Below are positions 30,736-33,584 of a stretch of DNA of 64,000 bases, one piece after another. This stretch comes from Vulcanimicrobiota bacterium (GTDB taxonomy: Bacteria > Vulcanimicrobiota > Xenobia > Xenobiales > JADMJV01): positions 315,312-379,311 of the forward strand of contig JAHBVR010000005.1 of assembly GCA_019637395.1 (NCBI GenBank), read 5' to 3'. Below the pieces are notes generated by a model that was given only the letters and a program-made list of their open reading frames with translations, searched no databases and was not told the origin of the DNA. Position numbers and translations under genes: made by a program. The first letter of the stretch is position 1. The number at the start of each line of letters is the position of its first letter.

Positions 30736-30757
30736 GGCGAAACCGGCGCAGTGAATC
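30736..30757. repeat. 22-base direct repeat, copy 1
   Basis: This copy runs from GGCGAAACC to GTGAATC and is identical to 32919-32940; ten further bases are similar (two mismatches). The second copy spans the start of the modB-like gene. The pair brackets the LytTR-like gene. Confidence 0.7.
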
Positions 30758-30808
30758 GCTGGCGCGCTGGTGCCTGTAGAGGCTTTGACCAATAGCCCAG
30801 GCTGGCGC

Positions 30809-31060
30809 TTAGGCAACCCCACCGGGCGTGGTTGAGTCCCTATCCTCCAGCGCCGCTCCCACGACCTCCACCAAGCGCTCGACCGGACGCAGCCAGTCCG
30901 CGTGAATCCCCCGGGGCTTCCCGTCAATTCCGCCCGTCTCGGCCAGGAAATCATCCACCCGGCCGTCTTTCGCCGTCAGCGGCCGCGAACACAGCTCCAG
31001 TTCCTCCAGGCTAAAAAACCGCCGGAACCACCAGAAACTCCGGCCCCCGCGGACAATTCA
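30809..31060 (-). pseudogene. In-frame continuation of the LytTR-like gene past a TGA
   Basis: After the TGA at 31060-31058 the same frame stays open for 82 codons to a TAA at 30811-30809. The translated piece (IVRGGRSFWWFRRFFSL, then a Cys/Pro/Asp-rich tail) aligns by eye with residues after NRFVYMP in the first LytTR-like repeat, so it is the missing end of the last repeat. The TGA falls where the first copy has Arg. This could be a CGA-to-TGA mutation, a sequencing error or readthrough. There is no start or ribosome site to make it a separate gene. Confidence 0.65.
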
Positions 31061-32722
31061 CCCCGTAATGACCGAGATGCTCCGCGAAATGGGCAGAAGT
31101 CCCGGGTGCTGCGTGCGTGCTTCCGCGTAGCTGATCTCACTGTCTTTTTCGCTGCCGTCGTCCAGGTGCCAGACCGCCGTATCGCCTCGAGCCTCCAGCC
31201 AGAGAATTCGCTCCGGCGCACAGGGCAGGTCCGGCCCGCCGGCCAGAACCGCCGGAAGGCCAGACGCCTCGGGGACGGGTCCTGGATGATGCAGCACCTT
31301 GCCATCGCGCAGCTCCACCTGCCAACGACTGGGATGGGCCGGCTTCCAGGTGGCGATTTCCTCCGGCTCGGCCAGGTACAGTCCCTGATAGCTTTGCAGG
31401 GCAATGCGCCGAAACGGCTCCGCCCCTCCCAGGCTTTGCGGCACGGGCAATTCGGCCAACACCTCGGCCAGCTCACCCACCTCACGCAGCCGCACAGGCC
31501 TGCCGAAGGTCTCCAGATCCCTCTGATCCAGCCGGCGCCGAATCTCCTCCACCACCGCCGTCTCCAGATCCCACACCAGCAACTGCAGCGGTCCCCGCAG
31601 CTCATAGGCCAGACACTCCAGCGGGAGATGATACTCTCGAGGCACCACCAGCAGGCTGATGCCCGCGGCCCGCGTGGCTTCAGCGGCCTCGGCCCTATGC
31701 TCGGCGGCCGCCAACAGCACTACTTCCGGGCGCCGCGTCCCCAACTCGCGCAGACTCGGGTCCAGTTCGCGCTGACCCAGCTGACGCAGTCGAATCACGC
31801 CCAGTTCCAGCACCATCGCCAGCCGCAGCTGGTTCCAACGACTGCGAGAGTACTCGTAGCCGCACCGCCTGCCCGCCTCCACTAAATATTCGAAGAAACT
31901 CATCGGGTCCGATCCGAAGCTCAGACTTTCGCCGCGCTCATAGCGCAGCACCGTCTGCCACATCAACTGCTCTGCAAATTTCGTGGAATCGGGCAGCTCC
32001 CGACGAATGACCTCCGGAGCGGCAGCGGCCAGGTCAAAAGGAAACTCACGCAGCCGCCACAATTTCCAAAGCACCGAAGTGTCCTGGGTGGACAGACTCT
32101 GCAGGCCCAGATAACCGGCCAGCCTGGGCGCGAAGGTCTTGCCGTTCAGCTTGAACTGCTCGCCCTGGTCCAGCTTGACCCAGCCCCCGCCAAAGCCCGC
32201 CCCAAAACTCCGCACCCGGGGCATATACACAAACCGGTTCTGACTCACCTGAACCAAATTCACGAACAATTCGCGCAACTGATGCACGTTCAACCCGCTG
32301 GCCGATTCCCCCGAATGGGTCCGCCACACCCATTCCCGCCCGCGCCGCTCCACCGCCAGCAGCCCCAGCGGCAGTTGCTCATCCACCACCTCCTCCGCAG
32401 GCTCGCCCAGAGGCTCATAGGTATAGCGGAATCCCCCCGGATCCACCCAATGCTCCCCTTCCCGCCGCAGCCAGCGAGGACATGCCCGGCCAGCCCCCAA
32501 CCGCACCCACGGTCCCTCCGGCAGCTTGCCGTGCCGATGCCCCACCCGCCCATCCCGCAACACCACCCGCCACCGGTCCGGATAGGCCGGCATCACCGTC
32601 GCCACCTCATCCCCCGGCACATAAAGCATCCCCTCCGCAGTCTGCACAATCACCCTCATCCGGCAGCATTCGCACTTGCAGGCCATACTCTTGCCCGGCG
32701 ATGCCCGAAACGTCGGCGTCAT
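31058..32722 (-). CDS. Protein with duplicated LytTR-like modules, interrupted by TGA
   Basis: A 554-residue product. A module of a short strand-rich segment (RWRVVLRDGRVGHRH, about 50-64) plus a LytTR-like DNA-binding domain (about 115-205, with LVQVSQNRFVYM) is present at the N-terminus and again from about 455 on (RWQVELRDGKVLHHP; LLPISRSISVITG). The centre (about 205-450) has a possible Rossmann-like segment (VVLLAAAEHRAEAA, LQLLVWDLETAVV). LytTR domains are transcription-factor DNA-binding domains. The stop at 31058 cuts the final LytTR-like repeat, and the frame continues after it. Start codons at 32722, 32686 and 32659 are all possible. Function unknown; possibly a damaged gene. Confidence 0.6.
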   Translation of the reverse strand: MTPTFRASPGKSMACKCECCRMRVIVQTAEGMLYVPGDEVATVMPAYPDRWRVVLRDGRVGHRHGKLPEGPWVRLGAGRACPRWLRREGEHWVDPGGFRYTYEPLGEPAEEVVDEQLPLGLLAVERRGREWVWRTHSGESASGLNVHQLRELFVNLVQVSQNRFVYMPRVRSFGAGFGGGWVKLDQGEQFKLNGKTFAPRLAGYLGLQSLSTQDTSVLWKLWRLREFPFDLAAAAPEVIRRELPDSTKFAEQLMWQTVLRYERGESLSFGSDPMSFFEYLVEAGRRCGYEYSRSRWNQLRLAMVLELGVIRLRQLGQRELDPSLRELGTRRPEVVLLAAAEHRAEAAEATRAAGISLLVVPREYHLPLECLAYELRGPLQLLVWDLETAVVEEIRRRLDQRDLETFGRPVRLREVGELAEVLAELPVPQSLGGAEPFRRIALQSYQGLYLAEPEEIATWKPAHPSRWQVELRDGKVLHHPGPVPEASGLPAVLAGGPDLPCAPERILWLEARGDTAVWHLDDGSEKDSEISYAEARTQHPGLLPISRSISVITG

Positions 32723-32918: not shown

Positions 32919-32940
32919 GGCGAAACCGGCGCAGTGAATC
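32919..32940. repeat. 22-base direct repeat, copy 2
   Basis: Identical to 30736-30757. Here it covers the GTG start of the modB-like gene and a possible 6-codon leader (ATG at 32917, TGA at 32935-32937) whose stop overlaps the start as GTGA. Confidence 0.7.
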
Positions 32941-33584
32941 CCTGGCCCGCTATCCAGCTTTCCTTGCTGGTCGCCTTCGTCAGTTCGACTCTATTGTTGC
33001 CCATCGCCACCCTTCTTGGCTACTGGCTGCAGCGCGGACGGCTGGGCGTGTTGGCGCGCTGGTGCCTGTCCCTGCCGCTCAGTTTGCCGCCGCTGGCCTC
33101 GGGCGTGCTGTTGCTCTGCCTCTTCAGTCCGCTCTGGCCGGTGGGAGCCTGGTTTGCCGAGCACGGCATGAATCCCGTCCTCACCTGGTATGGAGCCGTG
33201 CTGGCCTCCAGCCTGGTGGCTTTGCCCCTGGCCGTCGAGGCCGGCGAGGCGGCCTGGCAAAGCTTTCCCGAAGAAATGGTCTGGGAAGCCCGCAGTTTGG
33301 GCGCCGAGCCCGCCCGAGCCTGGCGCGAGGTCGGGCTGCCCCAGGTGGCGCCCGGCCTGGTGCGTGCCTGGGCTGTCGCCTTCCAGCGCTCTTTAGGAGA
33401 GTTTGGCGCCACTTTGCTGGTGGCCGGCAACATCCCCGGCCAGACCCAGACTCTGCCGCTGGCTCTCTACGTGGCCAGCGAAAGCGGCAACTACGGAGAG
33501 GCGGGGCGGCTTCTGGGCTGGAGCCTGCTGCTGGCTCTGCTGGCCGCCAGCCTGGTTCAGTGGGTGCGCTTCCGCACCCCTTGA
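32934..33584 (+). CDS. modB: Molybdate/sulfate-type ABC transporter permease (ModB-like)
   Basis: A 216-residue inner-membrane permease with about five or six hydrophobic helices and the EAA loop (EARSLGAEPARAWREVGLPQ near 119-138) that contacts the ATPase. GEFGATLLVAGNIPG near 157-171 is characteristic of molybdate, tungstate and sulfate permeases. No binding protein (modA) or ATPase (modC) is adjacent, which is unusual because these three are normally one operon. It may work with partners elsewhere or be a remnant. The GTG at 32934 has no evident Shine-Dalgarno but overlaps the stop of a possible 6-codon leader. The DUF3830 gene follows after 18 bases. Confidence 0.85.
   Translation: MNPWPAIQLSLLVAFVSSTLLLPIATLLGYWLQRGRLGVLARWCLSLPLSLPPLASGVLLLCLFSPLWPVGAWFAEHGMNPVLTWYGAVLASSLVALPLAVEAGEAAWQSFPEEMVWEARSLGAEPARAWREVGLPQVAPGLVRAWAVAFQRSLGEFGATLLVAGNIPGQTQTLPLALYVASESGNYGEAGRLLGWSLLLALLAASLVQWVRFRTP

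Follow-up and report, generated by a model that had tools for sequence, protein, structure and literature searches.

The window, a stretch of 64,000 nucleotides, carries on its minus strand an open reading frame of 554 aa (31058-32722) that is ended by a TGA (31060-31058), and the same frame stays open for 82 further codons, up to a TAA (30811-30809). These elements are all present in the window sequence as the original prediction claimed, and they raise the question of what the stop codon stands for. It had been taken for an Arg codon changed from CGA to TGA by a single transition, within a LytTR-like repeat completed by the post-stop translation, in a gene recently broken, misread or read through. 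Comparison with relatives leads to another answer: the feature is very probably a deletion-fusion pseudogene, bearing two lesions, of an operon of two genes (D and U) set between a protease gene and tupB, and the intact family appears to be Spo11/Top6A-like, Spo11 being the enzyme that initiates meiosis.

The nearest relatives of D were identified by a genome search in the same genus (Vulcanimicrobiota/"Eremiobacterota") as three proteins of 834-844 aa:

D of G002:C565 (L006), 844 aa, 50% identical to the window
D of G001:C18 (L007), 843 aa as cut, 49% identical to the window
D of G001:C77 (L011), 834 aa as cut, 42% identical to the window

These D proteins consist of an internal duplication in which a LytTR-like part followed by a C-terminal module occurs twice (copies A and B), and each D gene overlaps a downstream paralogous gene, U, encoding a single unit of about 441 aa. 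All three D genes, like the U genes paired with them (one of these with four residues unread in its record), run intact through the site that is broken in the window. No homologue sharing the stop was found, and the three intact D genes have no stop at that place. Set against these relatives, the window remnant is composed as follows:

31058..32659, minus strand: D remnant, made up of copy A (a LytTR-like part plus a degenerate winged-helix/Toprim) and the beginning of copy B, from tblastn
31460..32659, minus strand: copy A, deprived of its catalytic residues (Tyr and Glu-Lys absent, DxD without its second Asp), from an alignment in which the window copy A is set against the copies A of three D proteins, copy B of one D, and one U
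31097..31420, minus strand: start of copy B (LytTR-like), cut by the deletion, from a D copy B match at 31420-31097 with 53% identity
31082..31097, minus strand: deletion junction, about 2.07 kb absent compared with two intact operons
31014..31088, minus strand: 3' part of the partner gene U in frame -3, outside D's frame, from tblastn to U34, U31, U32 and U39
31058..31060, minus strand: the TGA, an out-of-frame triplet across the V and N codons of the U segment
31013..31018, minus strand: T6 run, site of the 1-nt frame shift that puts the U tail into D's frame
30809..31015, minus strand: 3' end of U including its TAA, 75% identical over 56 aa to U of G002

The true start of the D remnant is likely the ATG at 32659, where similarity to the homologues sets in; a start at the ATG of position 32722 would lengthen the protein by 21 residues that have no homologue. 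In tblastn, residues 1-509 of the D protein of G002 match the window at 32659-31097 (49%), and the match then jumps to residues 784-837. The target of this jump is closer to U, with the 75% identity to U of G002 given above against 50% to D's own end, and the window leaves D at residue 509 and continues at U residue 359-364 (373 as counted in the open frame of U34), the frame changing on the way. The matched ends lie 2078 nt apart in L074 and 2093 nt apart in L075 but about 14 nt apart in the window, from which about 2.07 kb is therefore missing; the homologues being only about 40-50% identical, the exact breakpoint and any microhomology are illegible.

Such a loss might also be produced by the assembly, with D and U intact in the cell, the contig misjoined and/or the T6 run a base-calling error, and the paralogy of D copy B and U would lend itself to a misjoin. 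However, the two share just about 35-37% protein identity and the breakpoints do not correspond in position between the paralogues, so that repeat collapse is no natural cause, and the junction lies in a contig of 386 kb, in a genome of 36 contigs. An artefact is thus a quite improbable source of the whole feature; the T6 run, for its part, could be a sequencing error of this assembly.

The deletion-fusion reading also accounts for the TGA. Within a 25-codon stretch (31088-31014) its bases form, in U's frame, the end of a GTG and the start of an AAT (V-N), and the frame -3 match to U stops in tblastn at 31014, a frame -1 match beginning at 31015. No T run stands at the site equivalent to T6 in the U genes of L074, L075 and L076. 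The frame appears open past the TGA because a 1-nt gain in T6 returns the U tail to D's frame; the open frame behind the TGA is U's own coding frame, shifted into D's by this single-base gain. The triplet straddles two codons of another frame matching U's C-terminal part and is not a mutated Arg codon. A CGA-to-TGA point mutation in an otherwise intact gene, or a programmed readthrough of the TGA, would be in keeping with the 82 codons that remain open behind it, but the bases on either side of this stop are coding in another frame, the tail derives from a different gene and about 2 kb is absent. Readthrough would moreover add 15 out-of-frame residues, whose resemblance to U is matched by 32% of shuffles, before U's tail resumes, and programmed readthrough is therefore unsupported. 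Both explanations were rejected on the frame -3 match to U and the missing 2 kb, and they are scarcely conceivable.

The nature of the tail points the same way. Compared with the C-terminal end of U it scores 197 and with the end of D 127, values reached by none of 500 shuffles in either case, against 21 for the LytTR region of copy A, which 79% of 500 shuffles reach; the completion of a LytTR repeat by the tail was rejected on this count. The family profile, a 476-position model whose full matches finish at 473-475, puts the tail at positions 414-473, the C-terminal end, and a Pfam search of the tail gave no match whatsoever. By these comparisons the tail forms the last part of a Toprim domain and not a LytTR repeat. 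As to the LytTR-like domain in general, it is plausible in the first copy from the match of the family profile to the LytTR structure 3d6w (E 2.1e-4), whereas a Pfam search of the window open frame yields no LytTR match at E<=1. That the gene is broken, as had been proposed, is borne out by the loss of about 2.07 kb and the 1-nt frameshift relative to intact relatives; both lesions are established by sequence comparison with these relatives.

The following course of events is proposed. An operon of two overlapping genes would first have inserted between the aspartyl-protease gene and tupB, D holding two units, of which copy A is catalytically dead and copy B intact, and U a single one. A deletion of about 2.07 kb then took out the greater part of both copy B and U, joining D's front to U's tail, and the 1-nt gain in the T6 run is the second lesion. 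The window retains only the dead copy A and part of a LytTR-like domain, and the remnant could give at most a truncated protein deprived of any cleavage centre. It may be asked whether such a truncated D, with its LytTR-like parts and dead Toprim, was retained as a functional DNA-binding protein after the loss of the nuclease, as its 554 codons hold no other stop and copy A is already catalytically dead in intact relatives. This is unlikely, given a single case with a ragged junction and a second lesion, in a genus where comparable loci are often mere fragments.

Decay is indeed frequent among the relatives. Among 21 family loci in genomes G000-G004, 10 look intact, 10 are incomplete (the window among them) and one is mixed (G003:C7, where only the tail of D precedes an intact U); this tally rests on profile coverage and open-frame length, so that a strongly diverged intact gene might count as a fragment. 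Besides the window, three incomplete loci have an in-frame stop inside the profile match, and G004 holds four fragments (C84, C104, C113 and C115) and no intact copy. The stop-codon puzzle itself is ordinary gene decay.

The site of insertion can be read in G001: the orthologues of the protease gene (83% identity) and of tupB (90%) are neighbours there, and the gap that separates them holds no family gene. The gap of G001 contains a 103-nt tandem repeat in 8.8 copies (L089 5491-6401, G001:C69), which was not found in G000, G002, G003 or G004. In G002, protease and tupB stand at contig ends and the site is illegible; G003 has tupB with no protease match, and G004 a protease match with no tupB. 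A direct repeat of 33 nt (94%) brackets the insertion in the window:

30736..30768, no strand: left copy of the 33-nt direct repeat
32919..32951, no strand: right copy, at the 5' end of tupB

With up to 2 mismatches allowed, the 22-nt core of this repeat has just two occurrences in the genome, and the G001 gap holds one stretch that aligns to both window copies. The repeat looks like a duplication made on insertion, to judge from these alignments. At 11 other family loci, flanking repeats score like shuffled controls, which speaks for one insertion event and not for a family trait; a general mobile cassette with 33-nt direct repeats was rejected, the repeat being present only at the window copy. 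An exact 18-nt repeat at 30760-30777 and 33052-33069 of the window marks a second piece of the tupB 5' region beside the left direct repeat, as if two tupB fragments had been stitched together.

The interest of the locus lies in the family from which the remnant derives, which has no NCBIfam match (0/19 members) or confident Pfam match and seemingly carries a full Spo11/Top6A catalytic set beside a LytTR-like part. Pfam LytTR is matched by 3/19 members at E<=1 (best 0.0039). For the C-terminal module, weak Pfam matches concern DUF2399 (2/19), JetD_C (1/19, E 0.18 only) and TOP6A-Spo11_Toprim (1/19). The phage family phrog_6247 'DNA topoisomerase' is matched by 7/19 members at E<=0.01 (best 1.3e-4); where positions are given, the match covers the Toprim part, in 4/10 members at E<=0.05. 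PADLOC families at E<=1 (Cas5, JetD1-3, RTasDnaG-like and SIR2) were considered and none was convincing, the best value being 0.0049 for Cas5. The Pfam TP6A_N profile is absent from all 38 genomes searched, family carriers included, and positive in four archaeal controls; the family is therefore said to work like Spo11/Top6A, not to be a Top6A.

A Tyr, a Glu-Lys pair and a DxD motif are invariant in the 19 units, and an Arg stands at Y-4 in 16 of them, missing only from three D copies B. In copy A of D, the Tyr and the Glu are gone and DxD is without its second Asp, both in the three intact relatives and in the window. Two AlphaFold models, both of U of L074, were obtained, one full-length (9-sequence alignment, pLDDT 71.5) and one of the C-terminal module (6 sequences, pLDDT 80.1). 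Top6A ranks first in Foldseek for both (E 1.7e-3 and 1.9e-3, respectively), and tops all four fold searches. In VIA-align, the full-length model gives Z 10.8 and 10.7 for Top6A, 8.6 for JetD and 8.3 for Spo11. With the module alone, Top6A (8.7 and 8.5) is barely above DnaG (8.4), so that the Z score by itself decides nothing, although the only chains aligned to the module over more than 200 residues are those of Top6A and Spo11. The fold alignments are given as residue ranges, and the invariant Tyr is a candidate for the catalytic Tyr of a winged-helix (5Y-CAP) domain.

In a tree of the 19 units, whose deepest forks are weakly supported (61/50), two pair types are seen, and in each of them the first genes of the pairs group apart from the second. 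The tree needs 2 and 2 changes, against shuffled means of 5.9 and 6.3, and none of 500 shuffles is as low, a pattern to be expected if the hetero-partners are stable. Judged by its conserved residues and its predicted fold, the family most likely works like Spo11/Top6A. The two paralogous subunits would dimerise in Spo11/Top6A fashion, DNA would be cut by the R-x3-Y tyrosine of one subunit together with the Toprim metal site of its partner, and the LytTR-like domains would pick the cutting site.

The family profile finds members in 12/118 genomes searched as relatives (E<=1e-5) and in 7/84 of the good-quality ones. On viral contigs, 57 stretches fit a pattern and none is a relative; plasmids and phages gave no match at E<=1e-3, and at E<=10 weak matches in 16 phage and 5 plasmid records, four of the phage records being used for the comparison with phage proteins below. 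The weak plasmid matches come from Streptomyces, Kitasatospora and Nostoc, with a best E of 2e-3. Those of Streptomyces and Kitasatospora (H17 and H19-H21, best E 2e-3) are Toprim-region similarities to hypothetical proteins of actinobacterial plasmids.

As for genomic context, one D-U pair (L076 5500-14066) is near a gene for a type I restriction R subunit, and ankyrin-repeat genes adjoin family genes in two genomes (L029 8591-10420, L074 258-1475); the ankyrin-repeat product is a possible partner of the family. Five of ten scanned neighbours have no Pfam match and two have unrelated ones. The biological purpose of the family may be guessed to be a defence or mobile-element function.

The literature searched, partly judged by title, gave no description of a LytTR fusion with Toprim or a Spo11-like module, and none of topoisomerase VI in Eremiobacterota; so far as it shows, the intact family looks undescribed. 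It is tentatively put forward, with somewhat less than an even chance of holding, that the family is an undescribed bacterial clade of ATPase-free Spo11-like makers of double-strand breaks, working as obligate hetero-dimers encoded by two overlapping paralogous genes, aimed at particular DNA sites through fused LytTR domains, with an extra dead copy in one subunit and subject to rapid gain and loss in the manner of mobile or defence cassettes. If true, a bacterial ATPase-free, site-directed Spo11-type cutter would offer a simple system for the targeting and restraint of Spo11-like dimers.

Among known systems, DNA-binding LytTR proteins resemble the family through the 3d6w match, but the LytTR-like part is joined here to a cleavage-type module and not to a response-regulator receiver, and just the three members mentioned match Pfam LytTR.

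The phage proteins of the DNA-topoisomerase type share Toprim homology with the family (hhalign E 2.9e-10 and 7.8e-12). The four taken from the loose search have R-x3-Y, E-K and DxDPSG invariant, with R-x3-Y ahead of Toprim in 4/4. They differ in that the hhalign match is confined to Toprim, the winged helix lying outside, and in being single, phage-borne genes for proteins of about 300 aa with no LytTR. The phrog_6247-type proteins are presumably of the mini-A type. The name mini-A occurs in an excerpt of PMC8185306.

JetD/MksG, the Wadjet nuclease (DUF2399), is alike in its Toprim, through the weak DUF2399 and JetD_C matches and in the Z of 8.6 between the JetD structure and the U model. No SMC gene is found among the ten neighbours scanned. 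The tyrosine is invariant in the family, whereas the 5Y-CAP domain of MksG offers no candidate tyrosine according to PMC10123090, which places the family closer to Spo11/Top6A than to JetD/MksG in this respect.

Top6A/Spo11 itself, the type IIB kind with a winged helix and a Toprim, is distinguished by the unmatched TP6A_N profile, by the LytTR-like N-terminus of the family and by its paralogous gene pairs, one gene of which is a double unit with a dead copy; no gene for the Top6B ATPase is found among the ten neighbours scanned. The apparent likeness lies in a predicted fold that would span both domains (the Z of 10.8 and 10.7), in the Toprim E-K and DxD present in 19/19 units, and in the catalytic set: Top6A of M. 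mazei uses Y106, R102, E202, D254 and D256, as given in the portion of PMC13040014 dealing with it, and the family's R-x3-Y and DxD have the same spacing as R102/Y106 and D254/D256.
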